Made by a program: the position numbers and the translations under genes. Shown piece after piece: positions 4,021 to 17,059 of a DNA stretch of 64,000 nt. The stretch's first letter is position 1; every line of letters starts with the position of its first letter. The notes beneath the pieces were generated by a model, which worked only from the letters and a program-made list of their open reading frames with translations, did no database searches and had not been told where the DNA came from. Source of the stretch: Nitrosospira lacus (GTDB lineage Bacteria > Pseudomonadota > Gammaproteobacteria > Burkholderiales > Nitrosomonadaceae); NCBI RefSeq assembly GCF_000355765.4, contig NZ_CP021106.3, forward strand, positions 1,459,137-1,523,136. The letters run 5' to 3'.

Positions 4021-4251
4021 ATGGGACAACTTAATCGGATTACCCAGCAACCGGACGTGATGGGGGGCAAGGCGTGCATCCGTGGCATGCGTGTCACGGT
4101 CGGCATGATCGTTGGCCAAATTGGTGCGGGACACAGCATCGAGGAAATTCTTGCTGATTATCCCTATCTCGAACGCGAGGACATCATGCAAGCGCTTCGC
4201 TACGCTGCGTGGCGTGCGGAAGAGCGCGAGGTCACGCTGGCCACGATGTGA
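4021..4251 (+). CDS. DUF433 family antitoxin
   Basis: A 76-residue protein of the DUF433 (COG2442) family, typical antitoxin partners of DUF5615 PIN-like toxins. The core reads as a family member: GGKACIRGMRVTVGMIVG followed by EEILADYPYLEREDI, a winged or homeodomain-like helix-turn-helix pattern. The ATG at 4021 was chosen because AAGGAA lies about 7 bases upstream and the length matches the family; in-frame starts at 3895 (TTG) and 3997 add non-conserved residues. Its stop codon overlaps the GTG start of the toxin (GTGA), implying translational coupling. Confidence 0.85.
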   Translation: MGQLNRITQQPDVMGGKACIRGMRVTVGMIVGQIGAGHSIEEILADYPYLEREDIMQALRYAAWRAEEREVTLATM

Positions 4252-4622
4252 AGCTGCTCGTCGATATGAACCTGTCACCGCGCTGGGTGGGCATATTGTC
4301 CGAGGCAGGCATCGAGGCGGCGCATTGGTCAAAGCTGGGCGCGCACAACGCGCCGGATTCGGGAATCATGGCCTTTGCCGCCGCGAACAATTACATGGTA
4401 CTTACTCATGATCTGGACTTCAGCGCGATCCTTGCCGCCACCCGGGGTGAGAAACCCAGCGTCGTGCAAATCCGCGCCGAGGACGTCAGTCCGGATGTGA
4501 TCAGTAAACAAGTCATCGTTGCCCTGCGCCAGATGGCGACCGAGTTAGAGGACGGGGCGTTGCTTACCATCGAACCCAATCGTACGCGCTTACGCGTGCT
4601 GCCGTTGCAGTCGAGAGGCTAA
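4248..4622 (+). CDS. DUF5615 PIN-like toxin
   Basis: A 124-residue member of the DUF5615 (COG4634) PIN-like group, predicted metal-dependent RNases. Acidic positions sit where expected: an N-terminal LLVDMNLSPRW block and a central THDLDF block. The GTG at 4248 overlaps the antitoxin stop, giving the usual short N-terminus MKLLVDMNL. The resolvase gene starts only 6 bases after this stop, so all three genes are probably one transcript. Toxin activity is inferred from the family only. Confidence 0.82.
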   Translation: MKLLVDMNLSPRWVGILSEAGIEAAHWSKLGAHNAPDSGIMAFAAANNYMVLTHDLDFSAILAATRGEKPSVVQIRAEDVSPDVISKQVIVALRQMATELEDGALLTIEPNRTRLRVLPLQSRG

Positions 4623-4628
4623 AAGGCC

Positions 4629-5186
4629 ATGTTGATCGGTTATGCCCGCGTTTCCACGCAAGACCAAAATCTTGATCTTCAAATCGACGCTTTGACAAAG
4701 GCAGGCTGCAAAAAAGTTTTCGATGACAAAGTCGGCGGTAGCCGGGCCGAGCGTCCCGGACTTGCTAAGGCGTTGGAAATGCTGCGTGAAGGCGACACTT
4801 TGGTTGTGTGGAAACTGGATCGCCTTGGCCGTAGTGTCAAGAGCCTGGTCGATCTGGTCGGAGAATTACACAAGCAAGGTGTTCAGTTCAAGAGCCTTAC
4901 CGACGCCATTGACACCGGCACCCCATCAGGCCGCTTCTTCTTCCATGTCATGGCCAGGCTGGCCGAGATGGAGCGGGAACTGACGATAGAGCGCACGCGT
5001 GCCGGCCTGGAAGTCGCCCGCCAGCTAGGCCGCAAGGGCGGCCGAAAACGCCAGATGACCGACAGCAAGATCGCTTCTGCAAAGAAACTGTTAACTAATG
5101 GTGTACCGCCACGGGACGTGGCTAAGAACCTTGGAGTATCCATTCCAACGCTTTACCGTTGGATTCCGGCTTCCGCGCAGCCTTAA
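4629..5186 (+). CDS. Serine recombinase, Tn3-type resolvase
   Basis: A 185-residue small serine recombinase. The N-terminal catalytic domain has the nucleophile Ser9 in YARVSTQDQ, the conserved WKLDRLGRS segment (about 60-70) and the long E helix (MARLAEMERELTIERTRAG). A C-terminal helix-turn-helix (about 145-180, PPRDVAKNLGVSIPTLYRW) would bind a res or inversion site. In a Tn3-family transposon it would resolve cointegrates. The stop codon lies within a 38-bp Tn3-type terminal repeat, so the gene abuts a transposon end. It follows the toxin gene by 6 bases, an arrangement known for Tn3-family elements carrying toxin-antitoxin passengers. Confidence 0.92.
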   Translation: MLIGYARVSTQDQNLDLQIDALTKAGCKKVFDDKVGGSRAERPGLAKALEMLREGDTLVVWKLDRLGRSVKSLVDLVGELHKQGVQFKSLTDAIDTGTPSGRFFFHVMARLAEMERELTIERTRAGLEVARQLGRKGGRKRQMTDSKIASAKKLLTNGVPPRDVAKNLGVSIPTLYRWIPASAQP

Positions 5187-6244: not shown

Positions 6245-7492
6245 TTAGTCGATCAATTTTGGAGGCTTGATACCGACGGAATCCTTGAGTCGCGCGTCGG
6301 AGAAATCATACTCCCCCAGCAGGTTCACATGGCGCCAGGAGGCGGCGGAGCCGTGCCGCAGCGCCTGGACGAATTCCTCGCGTTTGGCGGGGTCGTCGAT
6401 GGCGGCGAACTGCTGCGACAGATACAGGTAATTCCAGCAGACAATGCAATTATTGATGAGGCGCTTGCAGGCCTCGGCGAGCTTCTGATCCTCCTTTTCG
6501 GCGTTCAAAAACTCCCGTGGGCTGCCAACGGACACAGCGCGGGTGAAGCGATGCACGTGCTCGATGCCGTTGAGCACTTTTTCGATCGACATGCGCAGCT
6601 CCGGTTCATCGATGTAGCGCAGAATGAACAGGCTCTTTGGGATCTGGCCGAACGCCTTAAGGGCTTGGTAGAGCCCGTGCTGCTTGGAGTAGGAATTCAG
6701 GCGCCGGAAGATATCCGAGACGGTGATTTCCTTGAGTTTGATCGTCGCGATGAAGTGCAGGATGTCGTCCCACTGGGCGATGATCAAATCCGTATCGCGG
6801 TAGGCGTCGGGTTTGATGCGCCACTCGGACTGACCCACGTTTTTGCGGCTGCGGAACAGATAGCGGCGCTGGCGCTTGAGGTTCTTGAACCGCGGGGCAT
6901 AAGCAACGTCCACCAGGAAACTGGCGGTGAAGATTGCCTCGCTGTAGCCAAAGGCGTCGGTGGAGTGGATATCGCTTTTGACCACGTCGTTTTTCAGCAA
7001 GCCATTCACGTTGGTTTTGAGTTCTCCCAACGCCTTGGCATCCATAGGTTCTGGAATCATTCGGCTATCAAGCACGCTGCGAATGCGTCGAACTTTTTCC
7101 TCGTCTGTGAGCGTACCGTCCTGCGTGAGCGTCTTGATGGCGGCCAGCATCTCAACCGCTCCGCTGTCCAGGTAGCCGACGAGAGCTTTCAGGGATTCAT
7201 GGTGTTGCTCCCGTCGGGTATAACACTGCTCTTTGTGTTGGCGCGTGGCGGTGTTCTGTAGCCGTTGCACGCTGGTCAACAGCACCGCGACCAAATTGTC
7301 CTGCAGCCGGTAATACTGGTGGGCGACGAATGCCACCAGGTGCAAATAGCGATTGCGTTCGTCACGCCGAGTCAGTTGAAAGATCTCGGATCGGATGACG
7401 CTATGGGCGTAGTACTGGATGGCATCCGGGCTTAAGGCCAAGCCGTCAAGCAGCGGCTGCAGTCGTAGATGATAAGGTATATCGTTGCCCAA
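6245..7492 (-). pseudogene. Tn3-family transposase remnant, N-truncated and internally deleted
   Basis: A 415-codon reading frame related to Tn3-family TnpA, whose normal length is near 950-1000 residues. The first part (about 1-140, QYYAHSVIRSEIFQLTRRDE and the following helical region) matches the part before the catalytic domain. The later part (about 175-415) has SDIHSTDAFGYSEAIF, matching the second catalytic Asp region, and GIEHVHRFTRAV, matching the catalytic Glu region. The block with the first catalytic Asp is missing, and so is the N-terminus; a stop codon immediately precedes the TTG at 7492. It is therefore very unlikely to be active. A 310-codon frame on the opposite strand is its shadow. 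Confidence 0.82.
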
Positions 7493-8070
7493 TTATATTG
7501 ATATCTGTATTCTTGAGAGCAGCTATGTCCAAGAAAACTGAATATAAAGTTTCGTAATTGTCGAGAGTTAGTGGTTAAGCTTTTCACAGTCAATATCAAG
7601 GATCGTAAGTTGATTATTGATGATTTGAAATCCTTATTTTAGGGTTTTCATTTCTGAACATATAGAAATGCTCCAGCACACAACTGATAATGCCGGGTGA
7701 CCGCCATATGACCGTATGACAGGAGTTGGAATTGATCTTAACATTCTCAGAAAATAGAAAAAGTTCGTTCTCAGGGCAAGCCATTTTGGACGACCCACGC
7801 TTGCACTATGGATAATGGCGATATAGGCATAGCGAGGGTAGATGCCCGATCCGCAAATCTGGCTATCACAAGCGCGAGCAGCGCGTTCCAGCTGATTACA
7901 CGACTGGCACAATCGAAGAAGGTTATGACGGTGAGTATGCACGATACATGATCGATCTCACCCAGGAGGAACTTGATACTATTATCTCATCCATCGGGTA
8001 CGGGAGTTACCGGACCCTGATTTTTGTGCTAGCGTGGACACGCACCGGCCAATCTATAATAGTTTCTATA
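7493..8070. other. stretch without a clear gene left of the cargo cluster
   Basis: About 580 bp. On the plus strand one frame stays open from about 7812 to the TAG at 8116, passing through KREQRVPADYTTGTIEEGYDGEYARYM-type protein-like text, but without a convincing start. It may be the tail of a broken gene. A minus-strand frame at 7634-7942 looks random. No transposon end was recognised in this part. Confidence 0.35.
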
Positions 8071-8090
8071 AGAATGACTCACTACACTAG
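8071..8090 (+). repeat. Left copy of 20-bp inverted repeat (IS630-type 3' end)
   Basis: AGAATGACTCACTACACTAG is the inverted counterpart of 13321-13340 (19 of 20 bases identical). On the right side the same sequence is the last codons and stop of an IS630-type transposase (NDPLH stop); here the equivalent frame reads KNDSLH stop. The two copies point inward and enclose exactly the five-gene cargo. Confidence 0.7.
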
Positions 8091-8126
8091 GTTACCCGAT
8101 TTCTATCGTATTAACTAGGAGCTGCA

Positions 8127-9116
8127 ATGAGCACGAAACCAGTTCGGATTGCCGTCACCGGTGCTGCCGGTCAAGTGAGCTATGCTTTGCTTTATCGCAT
8201 CGCCAGTGGCGAGATGTTAGGAAAAGATCAGCCAGTTATACTGCAATTGCTCGAACTTCCGAACGAGAAGGCCCAGGCAGCACTAAAAGGTGTAATGATG
8301 GAGCTGGAAGATTGCGCTTTTCCACTGCTCTATGGGATGGAAGCCCATAGCGATCCTGCCGTCGCCTTTAAGGACACTGAGTATGCGCTTCTAGTGGGCT
8401 CCCGGCCGCGGGGTCCGGGTATGGAACGAACAGAACTTCTAGCCGCCAACGCACAGATATTTACCGCTCAAGGTAAGGCACTCGACGCTGTCGCGAGCCG
8501 GAATGTCAAAGTGCTAGTCGTTGGGAATCCAGCGAATACAAATGCTTGGATCGCGATGCAGAGCGCGCCGAGCCTGCCTCGGGAGAACTTCACGGCTATG
8601 CTGCGGCTGGATCACAACCGTGCCCTCAGTCAACTCGCCGCCAGGATGGGTAAGCCTGTCTCCTTAATCAAGTGTTTGGCTGTCTGGGGCAATCATAGTT
8701 CTACCATGTACCCGGATTATCGGTTTGCTTCCATGGAAGGCGAGAGTGTCAAAGACATCATAAACGACGATGCTTGGTACAAGGATGTATTCCTGCCTAC
8801 TGTTGCCAAACGGGGCGCGGCGATCATCGAAGCACGGGGGCAATCAAGCGCCGGTAGTGCAGCAACCGCAGTGATCGACCACATGCGCGACTGGGTTATG
8901 GGCACGCAAGGTAGGTGGGTCACGATGGGGGTACCGAGCAACGGCGAATATGATATTCCAAAGAACGTCGTATTCGGCTACCCGGTTACCTGCAGCGGAG
9001 GAAAGTACACCATCGTCGAAGGGTTGAAATTCGACGACGAATTCAGTCAAGATCGAATCGAGAGAACATTAGCTGAGCTGATTAGCGAGCAGGATGCTGT
9101 TAAGCACTTGCTCTAG
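8127..9116 (+). CDS. mdh: Malate dehydrogenase family protein
   Basis: A 329-residue NAD-dependent malate dehydrogenase of the cytosolic/bacterial type (malate to oxaloacetate). The dinucleotide motif GAAGQ is at 12-16. Substrate-binding arginines lie in [11 protein letters not shown] (91-101), with VGNPANTNA at 132-140. The catalytic Asp and His are present in LDHNRA (Asp162) and WGNHS (His190). The ATG at 8127 follows AGGAG at a good distance. It is the first gene inside the IS630-bracketed segment and is followed by a palindromic element that begins at its stop codon. Because it sits with a citrate-synthase-like gene on a mobile segment, it may be a pathway-specific paralogue, not the TCA-cycle enzyme; the sequence does not decide this. 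Confidence 0.88.
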
Positions 9117-9296
9117 GGCCTATTAACACTTATTTTGCACCCGCGACGGTCCTGTCCCTTCGGGTTGCTACACAAAAAACGCGGAGGCAAGGCGCGAAGC
9201 GCAGGCCATAGTGGGCCTATGGCCAAGCCTCGTAACGCGGCATCCGCGTTTTTTGTGTAGCAACGCGGGTACGAAATAAGTATTAACAGGCCCTAG
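9113..9296. repeat. Long palindromic MITE-like element
   Basis: A nearly perfect inverted repeat of about 184 bp. Outer arms begin CTAGGGCCTRTTAAYACTT on both sides, and inner arms contain GTTGCTACACAAAAAACGCG and its inverse at 9172-9184 and 9242-9265. The left arm carries an extra 18-20 bp (about 9153-9171). The centre, AGGCCATAGTGGGCCTATGG, is also palindromic. Such a transcript would fold into one long hairpin. The CTAG at the left end contains the stop codon of the malate dehydrogenase gene. It separates that gene from the citrate-synthase-like gene and could attenuate the operon. Confidence 0.75.
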
Positions 9297-9421
9297 AAAA
9301 ACAGGGCCGACTCGCGTCAGCGGCGGGGGCTTTCCTTTCCAGTCGTGCGAGATGCACATTTAGGAAACCAAGGGAGCAATACCCTGCGCGGGTGAATCCG
9401 CACAATGCCTTTGAGAAATCT

Positions 9422-10540
9422 ATGCGAGCAACAAAAGTACAATTCGATAAGTTGATCGCGTCACAGACCGAACTTAGTCTAATCGATGGAAGGACCGGAC
9501 GACTTTTCATTCGGGGCGTCGGTATTCAGGAGTTGGCACGAGATGCAGAGTTTGAGGATATATTTTACTTACTATTGCACGGTTCTCTGTCAAGAGGAAG
9601 AGAGCGGGAGGACTTCCGGCGCGGTTTTGTAGACAGCAGATGCCTTTCTGAGCTCAGCCAGACTGTCTTGAATTGTTTCCCATCCCATTCACGTCCAATT
9701 GACGTGGTTAAGGCGGTATTGGCTGCTGAGGGCGCAATCTGGGATGATGCGAAGTCAGAATTGGAGACCATGATATCTTGCGTTGCGACGTTACCTTCGA
9801 TTGTGGCGGCAGCCCACCGTCTCAGACAGCACCTAAAGCCTCTGCCAGCGGTTCGAGAGCTTGGTCATGCCGCAAATTTTCTCTATATGCTTAGCGGTGA
9901 AAAAGCGAGTGAGCAACATGCAAAGGCTATGGATACATACATGGTCTTGATGGCAGAGCACGCCCTGAATGCCTCTACTTTGAACGCACGTGTCATCGCC
10001 TCAACAGGCGCCACTTACTATCCTGCTGTTATAGGCGCAATTTGCGCACTTCAAGGGCCGCTACATGGCGGGGCCCCACCCCTTGTATTGAACCAAATCG
10101 ATGAAGCTCTATGCGCTGCGGATATCAAGAAGTGGTGCAGTGATCAGCTGGCAAAAGGTTTGCGACTCATGGGATTCGGTCATCCTGTGTATGAGACCAT
10201 AGATCCACGATCTGAGATATTCAAGGGTATGCTTCAGGTCTTGGATCCCGAGATGCATGCCAAAGCACACGATCTTGAGCAGCGGATCCTCAGTTTCCTT
10301 AGGTATCACAAACCTGAACACCCATGGCTGACGAATGTGGAATACTATTCTGCACTCGTCTTGCGTTCAGTCGGGGTGCCGTCAGACCTCCTGGTGACGG
10401 TGTTTGCCTGTGCCCGTATCGCGGGCTGGAGTGCTCATATCGCTGAGCAGCGCAAACAGCAGAAAAGTGGCCTAACTGGTGTGATGCATCCACGGTCGGT
10501 CTATATCGGGAAGGTCGCTGCTGGTGCAGAATTCCCTTGA
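9422..10540 (+). CDS. Citrate synthase family protein
   Basis: A 372-residue member of the citrate/2-methylcitrate synthase family, which condenses an acyl-CoA with an oxo-acid. The N-terminal SLIDGRTGRLFIRG element and both catalytic histidine motifs are visible (GPLHGGA and GFGHPVY). At the place of the catalytic Asp (Asp362 in E. coli GltA, usually NVDFYS) it has NVEYYS, an Asp-to-Glu change. C-terminal AGWSAHIAEQ is conserved. A GTG at 9392 would add ten residues; the ATG at 9422 was preferred because it matches family length, though its ribosome site is weak. It starts a tight run with the two next genes. The unusual active site and the context suggest a non-standard substrate, but true citrate synthase activity is not excluded. 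Confidence 0.82.
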   Translation: MRATKVQFDKLIASQTELSLIDGRTGRLFIRGVGIQELARDAEFEDIFYLLLHGSLSRGREREDFRRGFVDSRCLSELSQTVLNCFPSHSRPIDVVKAVLAAEGAIWDDAKSELETMISCVATLPSIVAAAHRLRQHLKPLPAVRELGHAANFLYMLSGEKASEQHAKAMDTYMVLMAEHALNASTLNARVIASTGATYYPAVIGAICALQGPLHGGAPPLVLNQIDEALCAADIKKWCSDQLAKGLRLMGFGHPVYETIDPRSEIFKGMLQVLDPEMHAKAHDLEQRILSFLRYHKPEHPWLTNVEYYSALVLRSVGVPSDLLVTVFACARIAGWSAHIAEQRKQQKSGLTGVMHPRSVYIGKVAAGAEFP

Positions 10541-10558
10541 AATGCTTTGGGTGAAACC

Positions 10559-11182
10559 ATGGCTGTTACTTCGCGCGAGGCTCGGAGATCTCGAATCGGT
10601 GTGTTCGTTGGGAGTTTCAACCCACCACACATTGCGCATTTATTCCTCGTGCAGGATGCAATGCAGGAGTTTGGCTTAGATTTGGTCTATGTTGTAGCCG
10701 ACCGGCTCGTCAAATATAAGGCTTTGGTCAATCTAGTTCATCGTCAGAAAATGATTGATTTGCTTTTTGGAGCGTACCCTGGTGTTCTCACCCAATTCTC
10801 AGCAAAAGATAACGAGCGGTTTGAGAATGCCGAATTGTGGGATATTCACCGCACCATTGAGGAAGCGCATCCAGGTGATGATGTTTACCTCATATTAGGC
10901 ACAAGTACCCTACAATGGTATGTCGCACAGTTCCCAGAACACTCACTTGAAGTGGTCCGGCAACTCATTGTGTGCCTACGCGACGAAGATTCGATCGTTT
11001 ATAGCACTCTAGCCGGGTGCACTGTTCAATCGTTTGTGCCGCGAATTCGAGGCGCGTCATCAACGCAGATCCGTGATCAGCTTACTCGCGGAGTACCGAC
11101 TCCGCTACTGACTCCTGAGCTTATTGCCTATATTGCCGAGCACAACCTGTACGCGAGCACCGCTCCCCCGAAGGCATTATGA
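10559..11182 (+). CDS. Nicotinamide-nucleotide adenylyltransferase-like nucleotidyltransferase
   Basis: A 207-residue HxGH-superfamily nucleotidyltransferase resembling NadM/NMNAT enzymes, which join a nucleotide to a phosphorylated acceptor. The N-terminal motif VGSFNPPHIAHL has His24 and His27 in place, with Ala26 replacing the usual Gly. The C-terminal ASSTQIRDQL (about 166-175) is the ISSTxIR-like phosphate-binding motif. The ATG at 10559 has GGGTGA just upstream. The stop overlaps the next start by ATGA. Homologues in phosphonate and phosphinothricin-type clusters (PhpF) use such enzymes on non-NAD acceptors, so the context leaves the acceptor open. Confidence 0.8.
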   Translation: MAVTSREARRSRIGVFVGSFNPPHIAHLFLVQDAMQEFGLDLVYVVADRLVKYKALVNLVHRQKMIDLLFGAYPGVLTQFSAKDNERFENAELWDIHRTIEEAHPGDDVYLILGTSTLQWYVAQFPEHSLEVVRQLIVCLRDEDSIVYSTLAGCTVQSFVPRIRGASSTQIRDQLTRGVPTPLLTPELIAYIAEHNLYASTAPPKAL

Positions 11183-12069
11183 ATCAGTACCCCGTGTTAA
11201 AGGGTGGGTTGGCCGATTCGATTCTCCGTAACATTATGTCGCCAAGCTACTACTTTCATGTTCCGGTCGGTGAGCGTACATTCGCTTATCCGCTTTTCTC
11301 TCGTGAATTAAGTCTGTACACCGATGGTAGCCGTGGGAGGGCGTTGCTTCATCAAAGCATGACAGTTCTCGATATGTACGGATTACAAACCACGAGTAGG
11401 TATCTAGCTTGGGTTTTCAATAAACCTTGTTCTGAGAACGGACGGAGCGCTAGCAGTCTAGAAGCCTTCATTGAGGGGGAAACGTACGATTTATGTGATT
11501 GTGTTGATAGTCAGCGATTTTCCCGCGTCGCTCCAATCCCATTACAAGGGCGATTCGGAATCCGTACTGCTCCCCGGCCTCGCGTCCTTATATTGGGGGC
11601 ATTCTTTCCAGCAGATTATGCAATTCGTCTCTTCGACGATCCTACAGCAGTTTTGGAGCGCTTGGCTACGGAACAGCCAATTCTGCCCTTTGAACGCACC
11701 GTTATGGTTTGCCATCAGTTGCGGCTGAGCGGACTTGAGTGTATGACCTCCATGACCCATGCACGTGACATTCTGAACCTGTTTCTTCGCGTGCATGCAC
11801 TTATGCGTATCGCTGAACATATAGTTGTTCTGTTGACACCAGGGTCTTCGTCGGTTGCGATGGAATATGGGGTCGTTTGCGCGGATCCCACCCTAGCTCG
11901 TAAGGCCGTCGTCTTGGTGCCGCGAGACAGCACCTTCATAACGATGGGCATTCGTGGGACTTTCATGCTTGAGGAGCCCAAGCATTTTTTCTATGTGAGT
12001 GATGGACAGATCCCGGGAGCACTTGATCAGGCGATTGCCTATATGAAAAGTTTGCGACACCCTGCGTGA
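11179..12069 (+). CDS. Hypothetical protein with possible nucleoside-deoxyribosyltransferase-like C-terminus
   Basis: I do not recognise this 296-residue protein. It is soluble, with no signal peptide or membrane helix. The last third (about 213-250) has the pattern hydrophobic strand, TPGSSSVAMEYG, then ARKAVVLVP, which recalls the PGS-x-AE-x-G strand-turn-helix of nucleoside 2-deoxyribosyltransferase-like and related Rossmann-type domains acting on nucleotides. RVLILGAFFPADYAIRLF at 135-152 may be the first strand of that fold. Its start overlaps the nucleotidyltransferase stop (ATGA), strongly suggesting coupled expression and a shared nucleotide-related substrate. The fold comparison is by eye and weak. 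Confidence 0.6.
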   Translation: MNQYPVLKGGLADSILRNIMSPSYYFHVPVGERTFAYPLFSRELSLYTDGSRGRALLHQSMTVLDMYGLQTTSRYLAWVFNKPCSENGRSASSLEAFIEGETYDLCDCVDSQRFSRVAPIPLQGRFGIRTAPRPRVLILGAFFPADYAIRLFDDPTAVLERLATEQPILPFERTVMVCHQLRLSGLECMTSMTHARDILNLFLRVHALMRIAEHIVVLLTPGSSSVAMEYGVVCADPTLARKAVVLVPRDSTFITMGIRGTFMLEEPKHFFYVSDGQIPGALDQAIAYMKSLRHPA

Positions 12070-12192
12070 GGGATACGCGCACCATTTAGGATTTTCAGAG
12101 AGCCCGAATCTTAGGACCATTAGATGAAGGTGCATCGCCCGCCCGGGGAGGAGTAACGTCATTGCCATGTCTTTTTCACCCAGGAGAACTCT

Positions 12193-13290
12193 ATGCGTTT
12201 GGACCTCATAGGCAGTGACTTGGTCTGTCCCGTCTGTGTAAATGACGCTCCCAATGCGCCCCCTCTCGAAGCTGTGCCCTACACAGGTAAGATTGAGGTG
12301 GCTTCTGAAATGACCTCAACATTCGAAGCCGGGGTACTTCATTGCTTGCGATGCGAACGCAACTTCCGTGTAGAGGATGGTGTAGGATTCTTTTCTGGAC
12401 TACCTCATTCGGCCGGAAGGAAGGATGACTTTGGCAGAGGACGGTATAACACCGAGGCTTATGCGCGCGCCTACATTCAGACCCACTTTCGCGACGTGAT
12501 CGCGGACGACAAGGCGGCGCGCACCCATCTCGATCTGCACGACGTCACGGGTTTCTATTCGTGCTCAGCAAACAATATGTACTATCGGTCCATGGCCGAG
12601 ATGCTCTTCACTAAACTCCCACTTGGCGCTACAGTGCTCGACCTAGGGTGTTCGGTGGGAAGACTCTCCCACGAACTCGCGCGGAAAGCTCGAGTTGTCG
12701 TAGGTGCTGATTCCTCCGAAACTCATATTCGAGTTGCCAAAACGATACAACGGCATCGCCGCGTCTCATTTCGCGTGGGGGAGGCGACGGTTTCCGGAAA
12801 GTACGTAGGAGATCCAGAGATCGTTGTGGATGTGTCCTCTGTTGTTCGCAACAACGTGGTTTTCGTGGTCGCTGACGAACAGTGCCTTCCCTTCCGTCTC
12901 TTCGACGGGATCGTATGCTCGGCAGTGATTGAACGCGTGCCAAACTTGGAGGTGTTTCTCCGTACACTGCGACATCGAATACACGACGGTGGCTTGCTAC
13001 TACTGAGTAGCCCCTTCGATCAGGACGAGCGCTTCGTCGATCGTAGCAACTGGCTGGGCTATGGCGCGTACGGCACTGAGTTGGGTACAGCAGAGGAGTC
13101 GCTTCGTGGATTGGTGCAACGGATAGGATTTCGCCCGATAGGCGGGATCGGCAGTGTAGGAGAAGGTGGACCTAGTCCACATAACGACGCTTACCGGCGC
13201 GACCTAAGGTGGGTTACCTATAATGACAGGCGCAAGCACATGGTCTGGAGTGTCCACGCGGAACTGTTCGAGGCGTGCGACTCGTTGTGA
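12193..13290 (+). CDS. SAM-dependent methyltransferase with N-terminal zinc ribbon
   Basis: A 365-residue class I methyltransferase. The N-terminus carries a Trm112-like zinc ribbon: cysteines at 12 and 15 (CPVC) and 51 and 54 (CLRC), followed by VEDGVGFFSG. The SAM-binding motif I is VLDLGCSVGR (148-157), followed by an acidic strand end (VVGADSS) and a later FDGIVCSAVIERV segment. The ATG at 12193 follows CAGGAGAACTCT, a good ribosome site. It is 123 bases after the preceding gene and last in the cargo run. The substrate is unknown; the context suggests tailoring of the product made by the upstream genes. Confidence 0.78.
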   Translation: MRLDLIGSDLVCPVCVNDAPNAPPLEAVPYTGKIEVASEMTSTFEAGVLHCLRCERNFRVEDGVGFFSGLPHSAGRKDDFGRGRYNTEAYARAYIQTHFRDVIADDKAARTHLDLHDVTGFYSCSANNMYYRSMAEMLFTKLPLGATVLDLGCSVGRLSHELARKARVVVGADSSETHIRVAKTIQRHRRVSFRVGEATVSGKYVGDPEIVVDVSSVVRNNVVFVVADEQCLPFRLFDGIVCSAVIERVPNLEVFLRTLRHRIHDGGLLLLSSPFDQDERFVDRSNWLGYGAYGTELGTAEESLRGLVQRIGFRPIGGIGSVGEGGPSPHNDAYRRDLRWVTYNDRRKHMVWSVHAELFEACDSL

Positions 13291-13320
13291 AGTCAGCGGT
13301 TTGGTCCAGGAGACTATACG

Positions 13321-13340
13321 CTAGTGTAGTGGGTCATTCT
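13321..13340 (-). repeat. Right copy of 20-bp inverted repeat bracketing the cargo
   Basis: On the minus strand this reads AGAATGACCCACTACACTAG, 19 of 20 identical to 8071-8090 in inverted orientation. The five cargo genes lie wholly between the two copies. Confidence 0.72.
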
Positions 13341-13518
13341 GTTTGGAGCTTAAATGGCGATTGGCCCAATTGACTTTTTGCAGGATATCATTGGCCTTGG
13401 CAGTCCAGACAAACGGCCTGGGGGAGTGGTTATGCATGGCGATGTATTCCTTGATGGCAGCGTTGAGTTCCGGGACGCTGCGGAACACGCCACGGCGCAG
13501 ACGGCCGGTGATGATATC
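13321..13518 (-). pseudogene. IS630-family transposase C-terminal remnant
   Basis: The minus strand encodes DIITGRLRRGVFRSVPEL, then MHNHSPRPFVWTAKANDIL, then ends NDPLH stop. This is the characteristic C-terminus of IS630-family transposases (HNxxPxPFVWTxxAxxIL). The rest of the gene is missing: at 13518 it is cut by the tip of a Tn3-type repeat. The 20 bp at its 3' end (13321-13340) are the right copy of the inverted repeat that also occurs at 8071-8090. Confidence 0.8.
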
Positions 13519-13556
13519 GGGGGTCAGTTCAAGAAACGGAAATTACGCACGTTAAG
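13519..13556 (+). repeat. Tn3-family 38-bp terminal inverted repeat
   Basis: A 38-bp block beginning GGGGGTCAGTTCAAGAAACG and ending CACGTTAAG, the standard shape of a Tn3-family end. The tnpA tail on the minus strand ends 6 bases away at 13563, which is the normal tnpA-to-end distance in this family. The tip points left, into the IS630 gene, so the Tn3 element inserted into IS630 DNA. Confidence 0.8.
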
Positions 13557-13562
13557 GTGAAC

Positions 13563-13799
13563 TCAAGCCGGAATAGCCAGTGTTATGACTGGCCGTAAGG
13601 GCCGGAATTTGCCCTTCGTCACCCGCTTGTTGGCATGCCATACATAGTCTCCGGTCAGATTGATGTGTTCCCATCCCAACGGTGAAACATGGGGCAAAAG
13701 CGCTTCATCGACACTTTTGTGCTGGCGCAGCGCTTCAATCGCTTTCTCCAGGTAGATCGTATTCCACAACGTGATAGCTGCCATGACCTGCCCCACGTA
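13563..13799 (-). pseudogene. Tn3-family transposase C-terminal remnant
   Basis: The minus strand encodes [38 protein letters not shown] and GKFRPLRP, the highly conserved end of Tn3-family TnpA. Only about 77 codons remain. It differs clearly from the C-terminus of the remnant at 6245-7492, so it comes from a different Tn3 element. Homology stops at about 13800 where an IS3-like end begins. Confidence 0.85.
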
Positions 13800-14109: not shown

Positions 14110-14153
14110 AGACGATGTTCGCTGCTGGATGGCTGACCCTATAATATGTGACT

Positions 14154-15605
14154 ATGTCATACCATATCTCCAATATTCGCCCCCAGCCCGATCACGTGCT
14201 GGTGGACATTGCCGATTATGTCGCCAATCGCGAGATTCAAGGTGGCCTGGCTTACGATACCGCGCGCAACTGCCTGATGGACTCGATTGGTTGTGCGATG
14301 GAAGCGCTTACTTATCCAGCCTGTACCAAATTGCTTGGACCGCTTGTTCCGGGTACGACTGTGCCCAATGGAGCGAGAGTTCCCGGCACCCGATTTCAGC
14401 TTGATCCGGTGCAGGCTGCATTCAATATTGGCACCCTGATCCGCTGGCTTGATTTCAACGATACCTGGCTTGCCGCCGAATGGGGGCATCCGTCGGATAA
14501 TCTGGGTGGCATACTTGCTGTGGCGGACTGGTGTGCGCGCAACGCGGTGGCTGCTGGAAAAAAACCGTTCACGATGCGCGACGTGCTGACCGCCATGATC
14601 AAGGCACATGAAATCCAGGGCTGCCTGGCATTGGAAAACAGCTTCAACAAGGTGGGGCTGGATCACGTAGTGCTGGTGAAAGTGGCTTCCGCTGCAGTGG
14701 TGACGCATTTGCTCGGTGGCGGCCGCGATCAGATTATCGATGCCCTTTCGCAGGCGTGGGTGGATGGACAATCGCTGCGCACCTATCGCCATGCGCCCAA
14801 TACCGGTTCACGCAAATCCTGGGCTGCGGGAGACGCCACCAGTCGCGCGGTCTGGCTCGCGTTGATTACGCATAAAGGCGAAATGGGTTATCCCTCGGCA
14901 CTCACCGCTAAAACCTGGGGATTTTACGACGTGCTGTTCAAGAGCCAGCCATTCCGGTTTCAGCGGCCCATTAAACAGTGGGGGTCATACGTGATGGAAA
15001 ACATATTGTTCAAGATTTCATTCCCTGCCGAATTCCACGCGCAGACAGCGGCGGAGTGTGCGATGCAGTTGCATCCGCGCATCAGTGAGCGGATCGACGA
15101 GATCGGGAAGATCACCATTCGGACACATGAGGCGGCGATCCGCATCATCGATAAGAAGGGGCCACTCAACAATCCAGCCGACCGGGATCATTGCATCCAG
15201 TATATCGTTGCGGTATCGCTGATTTTCGGGCGGCTTACCGCTGCCGATTATGAGGATGCCGTGGCGGCTGACCCGCGCATCGATAAGATGCGCGCTAGAA
15301 TCATCTGTGTCGAAGACCCGCGATTCACGCAGGATTATCACGATCCTGAAAAACGTTCCATCGCCAATGGTGTTACGGTGGAATTCAAGGATGGCGGCAA
15401 ACTGGATGAGGTCGTGGTGGAATATCCCATTGGGCATAAGTTTCGCCGCAATAAAGGCATTCCGCTACTCGAAGAAAAATTCAGAGCCAATCTCGCGCGC
15501 CGGTTTCCAGCCAGGCAACAAAGTACGATCATTAACCTCTGTCTTGACCAGCCGAGACTGGAAGCAACACCCGTCAACGAATTTATTGACATGTTTGTGA
15601 TTTAA
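14154..15605 (+). CDS. prpD: 2-methylcitrate dehydratase (PrpD)
   Basis: A 483-residue MmgE/PrpD-family enzyme that dehydrates 2-methylcitrate to 2-methyl-cis-aconitate in propionate breakdown; homologues also act on citrate. It aligns along its whole length with E. coli PrpD from memory: [17 protein letters not shown] at the start, then [20 protein letters not shown] and [19 protein letters not shown] (about 75-125). The ATG at 14154 was chosen to match that N-terminus; an in-frame GTG lies 6 bases earlier. It stands alone: no prpB or prpC lies next to it, although a citrate-synthase-like gene (9422) and an aconitase (19272) lie within 6 kb. Confidence 0.92.
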
Positions 15606-15652: not shown

Positions 15653-17059
15653 TTAGTCTGATTCACGCACTTTCGTATCTGAACTGGCAGCGTTTTCTCC
15701 CTGAGCGGTATTTACATCGAGCAATATTTTAAGTGCCGTGAGTTTTACCTTCCACGACGGAACTGCCGCGGGGTCCATCGATAAACCTGATACGAGTTGT
15801 TCCACCCCATCCACGTGCGCAGACTCACAGGCGGACAGAAAATGCCGCAACTCGTCGCTACTGCCAATACCGGTGCGCCGGGCAAAATCCGGATAATCCT
15901 CGCGCAGGTGCGCTGCAAGCCAGGCCTGATCTATCCATTGCCTTAACTGATTGTAGGTGAAGCAGGTACGCACGGCCAGATCCACAGCATCGGCATTGCA
16001 GAGATTCTCAATGTTATCAAAACCTTCCCGCTCCAGTCTCAATTCATGGGCGTAACTCATCCCGGCGAGCATGGAAAGCGGCAACGCACGGTAATTGTCG
16101 CCGGGAATGTTCCTCATCACTTTGAGCACAACGCGCTCAATGGCCAGTGCGGCCCGTTTTGGATAAAAGCCAAAGAAAAAGCTCAAAACAGGAAGCAGGC
16201 TAAGGCTTGCGGGTATCGCTGAACCTGTTTCATCCGGGTTGTCTTTCAAGTCTTTATTGGCGGGCGGGGCGTCAGCGGTGGATGAAGATTCAGCGGCATT
16301 ATTATTGGCGGATGTGGCAACTCGCGCCGCAGCGGGTCTGGAGTCTTCAGGAAAAGTGAAGTTGAAGACGAAAGAAAGAACCAGCGCCAGTATGCTCGCG
16401 ACGATCATGCGGATGGCGCCATCGACGAAAGTGTGAGAGGTCAGATCCAGCGTGAAGTATGCGCGGGTAACCGAGCCGATGAAATAAATATAGGCACCGA
16501 GGAAACCGTACTGGAAAGCGGTCAGATTGCGGACGAGATGGGAATAATACGCCTCCGGATTTTTCCCGAATAGTTCGGCGAAAGGCCCCATGGTCAACAT
16601 ATTTGCACCCAGACTGAAGTCCACGCCTCCGTCCGCCGAGGGAACAGGTTTGAACAGCAACAGGATGCAAATGCCGAGCAGCACAATGGTGGTGGTCAGC
16701 CAGACACTACCCCGATAGGTGCTGAAGGAAGCCCGGTGCCCCATCCTTCTGCGGATTTCGCTACGGCGCTCAGCCGGGACTTCGCGCTGGAGCTGCCGCT
16801 CTTTGCGGTTGGTCATGCTCTGTATATAGGTTAAGGCGAGAGATGGCACGACCAGGACGGCCAGAAGCGCCATGATCAGGTTATATTGAAAAAATACTGG
16901 GTCAAACCAGTGCGCCACGGCGCGGAAATCATGGTACTTGACGTCGTCGGGTCCCAAGGCGGATTCCAGCCCAAGACCCACGATAAGAAGTGTCGGCACC
17001 AGAAACACCAGCCAGTCGTACCACGGCATGCTCCACTTGTTTCCCTCGGTCTGATCCAT
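15653..17059 (-). CDS. Multi-spanning membrane protein of unknown function
   Basis: I do not recognise this 468-residue protein. Hydrophobic segments lie near 17-35, 53-78, 118-137, 183-202 and 215-235. A low-complexity Ala/Ser/Asp linker follows (about 243-283, TSANNNAAESSS). The C-terminal 170 residues are cytoplasmic-looking, with a helix-hairpin-helix-like stretch (EGFDNIENLCNADAVDLAVRT, about 350-370) that may bind partners. Its start lies 12 bases after the stop of the upstream lipase-like gene, with AAGGAGG near the ATG, so the two probably form an operon. A joint envelope role is possible but unproven. Confidence 0.7.
   Translation of the reverse strand: MDQTEGNKWSMPWYDWLVFLVPTLLIVGLGLESALGPDDVKYHDFRAVAHWFDPVFFQYNLIMALLAVLVVPSLALTYIQSMTNRKERQLQREVPAERRSEIRRRMGHRASFSTYRGSVWLTTTIVLLGICILLLFKPVPSADGGVDFSLGANMLTMGPFAELFGKNPEAYYSHLVRNLTAFQYGFLGAYIYFIGSVTRAYFTLDLTSHTFVDGAIRMIVASILALVLSFVFNFTFPEDSRPAAARVATSANNNAAESSSTADAPPANKDLKDNPDETGSAIPASLSLLPVLSFFFGFYPKRAALAIERVVLKVMRNIPGDNYRALPLSMLAGMSYAHELRLEREGFDNIENLCNADAVDLAVRTCFTYNQLRQWIDQAWLAAHLREDYPDFARRTGIGSSDELRHFLSACESAHVDGVEQLVSGLSMDPAAVPSWKVKLTALKILLDVNTAQGENAASSDTKVRESD

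Follow-up and report, generated by a model that had tools for sequence, protein, structure and literature searches.

Why does a bacterium that already has a malate dehydrogenase (MDH) carry a second gene for this enzyme, and what holds that gene together with four others? The question is raised by a five-gene set of Nitrosospira lacus, located in a 64,000-nt stretch (hereafter the window, in whose positions coordinates are given) of a genome represented by a single 3.26-Mb contig (G000). The five open reading frames (ORFs), all on the + strand at 8127-13290, encode the second malate dehydrogenase MDH2, a citrate-synthase-like enzyme, an NMNAT-like nucleotidyltransferase, an orphan protein and a methyltransferase. 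They are bracketed by two inverted 20-mers, which the initial annotation interpreted as in a composite transposon, likening the genes to a small biosynthetic pathway. We tentatively propose that the set is a horizontally spreading Nitrosospira cassette that encodes both a pathway to a small antimetabolite and a tolerant copy of its target.

The same five genes are found in the same order, and in different surroundings, in the genome of the window, in G311 and in Nitrosospira sp. NpAV (G314), three related soil ammonia-oxidising bacteria that carry the set at three different chromosomal places. The homologues do co-occur elsewhere, and the five genes form a unit, as initially supposed. The orphan gene is present in three of 23 genomes of the genus and in one of 300 genomes of the order, the window's own (G311 and G314 were outside that draw). 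Among 398 genomes of the phylum it is a full match again only in the window's own genome, with two weak matches, of which one contains internal stops and the other overlaps ORFs in a GC-rich region. No related set was found in 397 other phylum genomes with the citrate-synthase-like protein at E 1e-70 (best four or fewer candidates per genome), nor in phylum genomes with the methyltransferase at 1e-20 (best five or fewer); with candidates so limited, lower-ranked relatives of the set could be missed. Other phyla were covered by plasmid searches, viral contigs and one named-genome scan, restricted to close relatives, which returned one locus, that of NpAV.

In NpAV, the gene set constitutes a 5.47-kb insertion (about 6757-12230 of the NpAV locus, L059), whose flanks lie 17, 36, and 134 bp apart in G311, G000, and G305, respectively. 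The left edge of the insertion matches a dispersed repeat resembling a miniature inverted-repeat transposable element (MITE). Its edges also contain an 11-bp inverted repeat, on which we place little weight because many such short pairs occur in this stretch of NpAV. The site occupied in the window is empty in G305, G306, G311, and G314.

Synonymous divergence (dS) of the five genes is 0.06-0.09 between G000 and G311, 0.12-0.30 between G000 and NpAV, and 0.16-0.30 between G311 and NpAV, with weighted values of 0.082, 0.203, and 0.235. The core genes of the same pairs give 0.34-0.58 (eight genes), 0.55-0.73 (four genes), and 0.26-0.62 (four genes), where gltA was left out against NpAV as a non-orthologous match and glgP, sdhB, and acnA had no NpAV row; the values of the gene set are mostly two to five times lower. 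Since synonymous divergence is low compared with core genes, we conclude that the set moved between species after these had split and has been maintained by selection. The ratio of nonsynonymous to synonymous divergence (dN/dS), 0.12-0.45 for the cassette and 0.02-0.13 for the core genes kept, shows purifying selection on all five genes. The GC content at third codon positions is 0.49-0.58 in the cassette versus 0.60-0.69 in eight native genes.

The first gene of the set, mdh2 (8127-9116, + strand), encodes a protein of 329 amino acids (aa) that scores over its full length above the curated cut-offs of NF003916 and TIGR01759. In a tree of 31 MDHs, from which the second MDH of G003, a weak G008 match, and the G311 and G314 remnants described below were left out, the three MDH2 proteins group in a single clade (100/99), which is placed among MDHs from other genera of the order and apart from the 17 native Nitrosospira MDHs. 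The window's genome retains its native mdh, at C1:1438621, with prpB and prpC downstream of it. A full-length, single-copy native mdh is present in 16 of the 18 genus mates searched (G318-G321 were outside this search), that is, in all 16 non-carriers examined. In G311 and NpAV, MDH2 is the only full-length match of the MDH type, and of the native gene just 82 or 88 residues survive. These remnants have no start and no internal stops, contain small insertions or deletions, and differ between the two genomes in their deletion edges. The native gene is lost in two of three carriers versus none of 16 non-carriers (Fisher p 0.018, without correction for relatedness).

MDH2 also departs from other MDHs at positions that are otherwise conserved. 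Among the 181 columns conserved in 28 other MDHs, it has a residue of its own at ten, and six of these fall within residues 10-25, the glycine-rich cofactor loop, or 88-106, the catalytic loop. The two loops hold 30 of the 181 columns (Fisher p 0.0017, for loops picked post hoc, once the residues had been listed). The same test applied to thirteen single rows and two groups as controls gave p values of 0.52-1. The five solved bacterial MDHs among the matches listed agree with the 28 at the six loop positions, with the exception of residue 102, which is R in three of the five, these three being nearly the same protein.

For four of the five proteins, the families found by Pfam and NCBIfam agree with the classes assigned in the initial annotation, whose five ORFs and strand also hold; the fourth ORF has no family. 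The citrate-synthase-like enzyme (9392-10540, + strand; 382 aa) belongs to PF00285, reaches 294 bits versus the TIGR01800 cut-off of 421, and passes the cut-off of none of the 21 NCBIfam models listed. It is 28-31% identical to the GltA and PrpC of its own genome, and the best of the plasmid matches listed shows 40.4% identity. At the catalytic positions, assigned by the numbering of Escherichia coli GltA, both histidines and three arginines are kept. The aspartate, present in all four GltA and PrpC proteins compared, is a glutamate (Glu317) in all three carriers, and the His-His-Asp set expected of a citrate or 2-methylcitrate synthase is incomplete. The standard enzymes are not missing from the rest of this genome, in which the native mdh is accompanied by two more citrate-synthase genes, taken to be gltA and prpC.

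The NMNAT-like nucleotidyltransferase (10547-11182, + strand), of 211 aa when read from a TTG start (an ATG lies at 10559), contains the motifs GxFxPPHxxH and SSTxIR in a match of nearly full length. It reaches 64 of 197 and 55 of 112 bits for the NadD cut-offs and is 19-29% identical to seven plasmid relatives. Its gene overlaps by 4 bp that of the orphan protein (11179-12069, + strand; 296 aa), for which no match was found in NCBIfam, PHROGs, a PDB profile search, plasmids or viral contigs, and nothing better than E 0.11 in Pfam. Its C-terminal half gave nothing better than 0.8 against PDB; judged by eye only, this half resembles nucleoside-deoxyribosyltransferase-like folds. The last gene (12193-13290, + strand) encodes a methyltransferase whose domain is related to OvoM, OvsM, and the C-terminus of OvoA, with OvoM and OvsM the closest among solved structures in the profile search. 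The protein had been described as a zinc-ribbon methyltransferase; its family bears out the second word, and the zinc ribbon is our reading of two CxxC pairs in an N-terminal CxxC...CxxC segment that matches no family. A role in anti-phage defence was considered and rejected: PADLOC gave no match for three of four proteins, and the match of the methyltransferase to mads_2 (E 1.2e-13) is limited to the methyltransferase stretch.

Taken together, these comparisons show conserved gene order in different surroundings, low divergence indicative of recent movement, purifying selection, and, in two carriers out of three, loss of the native mdh. If the product of a pathway hits a central enzyme, the pathway would be expected to bring its own copy of this enzyme, with active-site changes, and the native copy to be lost afterwards. 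A specific form of our proposal, somewhat doubtful in its details, is that the citrate-synthase-like, NMNAT-like, orphan, and OvoM-like proteins make an undescribed small antimetabolite that inhibits malate dehydrogenase, and that the tolerant MDH has displaced the native enzyme in two nitrifier species. The citrate-synthase-like enzyme would catalyse the condensation of an acyl-CoA with an acid resembling oxaloacetate, the NMNAT-like enzyme would attach a nucleotide, the OvoM-like enzyme would methylate a ring nitrogen or a similar atom, and the orphan may perform one further step of the pathway. The product could be a small citrate-like or dinucleotide antimetabolite acting on malate dehydrogenase, probably at its NAD or active-site loops, with MDH2 as the putative tolerant target copy that would now cover the malate dehydrogenase duty of the cell.

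Several observations speak against this proposal. It has no known product, the set lacks a transporter or regulator, and the substrate of the nucleotidyltransferase cannot be read from sequence. The genome of the window retains both mdh genes, and mere redundancy could explain the loss of the native one elsewhere. The G311 deletion is nested in that of NpAV, which makes one shared, later enlarged deletion possible. Apart from the post hoc choice of the loops, two of the MDH2 residues, Y23 and S92, are ordinary in eukaryotic cytosolic MDHs. With respect to movement and selection, the empty-site comparisons cover only the sites of NpAV and the window, the core dS of zwf between G311 and NpAV (0.255) falls within the range of the cassette, and the dN/dS of the cassette is higher than most core values, that is, the genes are constrained, but less so.

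Alternatively, and quite possibly, MDH2 is the first enzyme of the pathway, which feeds oxaloacetate, or the keto acid of a malate analogue, to the citrate-synthase-like enzyme, with no toxicity involved, the native mdh having been lost as MDH2 serves both duties. The position of mdh2 at the head of the set, directly before the citrate-synthase-like gene, and the retention of all three substrate arginines of citrate synthase fit such a supply role, and the changed active-site residues may equally mean an altered substrate. A cell with an ordinary MDH, however, should need no extra one unless the substrate differs, and if it does differ, loss of the native MDH would harm. We place the target-copy proposal slightly ahead, by a small gap, because a plain supply enzyme would not be needed beside a working native one.

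An unlikely explanation is passive horizontal transfer of ordinary metabolic genes in a repeat-rich genome, with co-occurrence and mdh loss as neutral effects of redundancy. Remnants of MITE-like or insertion sequence (IS) elements do lie at the junctions in the window, G311, and NpAV, and redundancy would account for the loss of one copy. This view is at odds with the purifying selection seen in all five genes and with a gene order that is unbroken in each of the three carriers.

Much less probable still is the proposal that the set is the cargo of an IS630 composite transposon, although in the genome of the window two related 20-bp IS ends do surround it. The 20-mer at 8071-8090 recurs inverted at 13321-13340 with a single-base difference (19/20), in the positions and orientation originally reported, and none of 100 shuffles gave a match, the pair being far beyond chance. 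One further copy with up to three mismatches occurs in the 3.26-Mb genome. A third, longer remnant is located elsewhere in the genome. Both 20-mers resemble the ends of IS630-type elements. The right one corresponds, as had been noted, to the end of an IS630-type transposase gene, with its final codons and stop. A remnant of this gene survives (13321-13542, - strand), whose 73-residue open stretch shares 72% identity with an IS630 transposase of Caballeronia. The annotated Caballeronia element carries CACTACACTAG at both ends, and at one end this sequence overlaps the stop of the transposase; in a second relative (L103) one end only was found with up to six mismatches allowed. Of the left copy (8071-8090, + strand), just 20 bp remain, and neither side retains its outer IS edge. 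The ends had been said to point inward; their CTAG edges do face the genes, and for this reason we read them as probable ends of two different IS copies.

The relatives contradict the composite. In NpAV, homology spans window positions 7910 to 13292, broken by the MITE between the first two genes of the window's set; the left 20-mer is represented by a diverged version (16/20 identical) within a longer stretch common to the window and NpAV and not G311 (7910-8086), and no right 20-mer was found with up to five mismatches. In G311, homology runs from 8086 to 13322, i.e. from one CTAG site to the other, which would suit a composite; its right CTAG, however, carries a MITE-like end, its left side is a different sequence, and no 20-mer within five mismatches is present in the stretch compared (L060). 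The transposase remnant was not seen at the right junction of either genome. Since IS630 ends and the MITE both lie at CTAG here, common edges can be explained without a composite. The two 20-mers do not accompany the cargo to the other genomes, and it is the five genes, not this bracket, that define the unit.

The idea of a small biosynthetic pathway remains reasonable, but a cryptic phosphonate route of the phosphinothricin type, with its phosphoenolpyruvate mutase elsewhere in the genome, is the least credible explanation: enzymes like the citrate-synthase-like and NMNAT-like proteins occur in phosphonate routes, but none of the three carriers has a TIGR02320 match over the cut-off (none of 14 control genomes passed either, leaving no positive control), and the single weaker match per carrier falls at prpB.

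A MITE-like palindrome (9112-9297; 34-nt arms with nested 28-nt arms) lies between the first two genes of the set, inserted at a CTAG that contains the mdh2 stop codon. It gives 22 matches from about seven places in the genome, and at that position is absent from NpAV and represented by at most about 15 bp in G311. The set is located just upstream of prpD (14148-15605, + strand). The C-terminal fragment of a Tn3-family transposase lies at 13563-13796 (- strand), and a second such fragment, different in sequence by eye, at 6245-7492 (- strand), both assigned by Pfam and NCBIfam. In the genome of the window, about 31 kb separate prpD from prpC (C1:1441681-1473284, in the window up to 14148), the latter named from its sequence and place, versus 0.7-3.5 kb in G305, G306, G311, and G314. 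The part of this stretch within the window encodes a TonB receptor, a PepSY protein, and, at 4209-5186, a DUF5615/PIN-like protein followed by a serine resolvase; the rest contains many ORFs. A repeat of about 380 bp (2096-2482) is also found near the gene set in G311 (L060 4197-4579, 83%) and in G305 (L070 18865-19256, 81%). Downstream of prpD, a 468-aa ORF (15653-17059, - strand) has no Pfam match at 1e-5.

Among the literature matches listed, no description of the five-gene set was found, and no title names malate dehydrogenase as a self-resistance target. If the target-copy proposal is true, slow-growing soil nitrifiers would make a natural inhibitor of a central enzyme; even with a supply role for MDH2, the set would be a natural case of mobile genes replacing an enzyme of the citric acid cycle. 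The differing residues of MDH2 can be tested one by one.

In comparison with known systems, MDH2 resembles the cytosolic-type bacterial malate dehydrogenases over its whole length, with 1b8p as its best PDB match (E 9e-161), and differs from the native MDH in lineage and in loop residues unseen in the 28 other proteins. The second enzyme shares the family PF00285, the two catalytic histidines, and the three arginines with citrate synthase II and 2-methylcitrate synthase (TIGR01800), from which its sub-threshold scores and catalytic glutamate set it apart. The third has both motifs of NadD (TIGR00482) and other cytidylyltransferase-like enzymes (PF01467) over nearly the whole length, but is far below the NadD cut-offs. 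The methyltransferase domain resembles the 5-thiohistidine N-methyltransferase OvoM and its 5-selenohistidine counterpart OvsM (PDB 9bxl and 9bxh; profile E 1.7e-15 and 5.4e-13). Unlike OvoM, it scores 96 bits where the TIGR04345 cut-off is 170 and has the extra N-terminal CxxC...CxxC, and unlike OvoM systems, the cassette contains no sulfoxide synthase. As a general principle (PMC12616698), a biosynthetic gene cluster may include a resistant version of the enzyme that its product targets. Unlike such clusters, the cassette lacks a classical backbone synthase; like them, it pairs a second copy of a housekeeping enzyme with divergent enzymes, within a conserved and co-inherited set.

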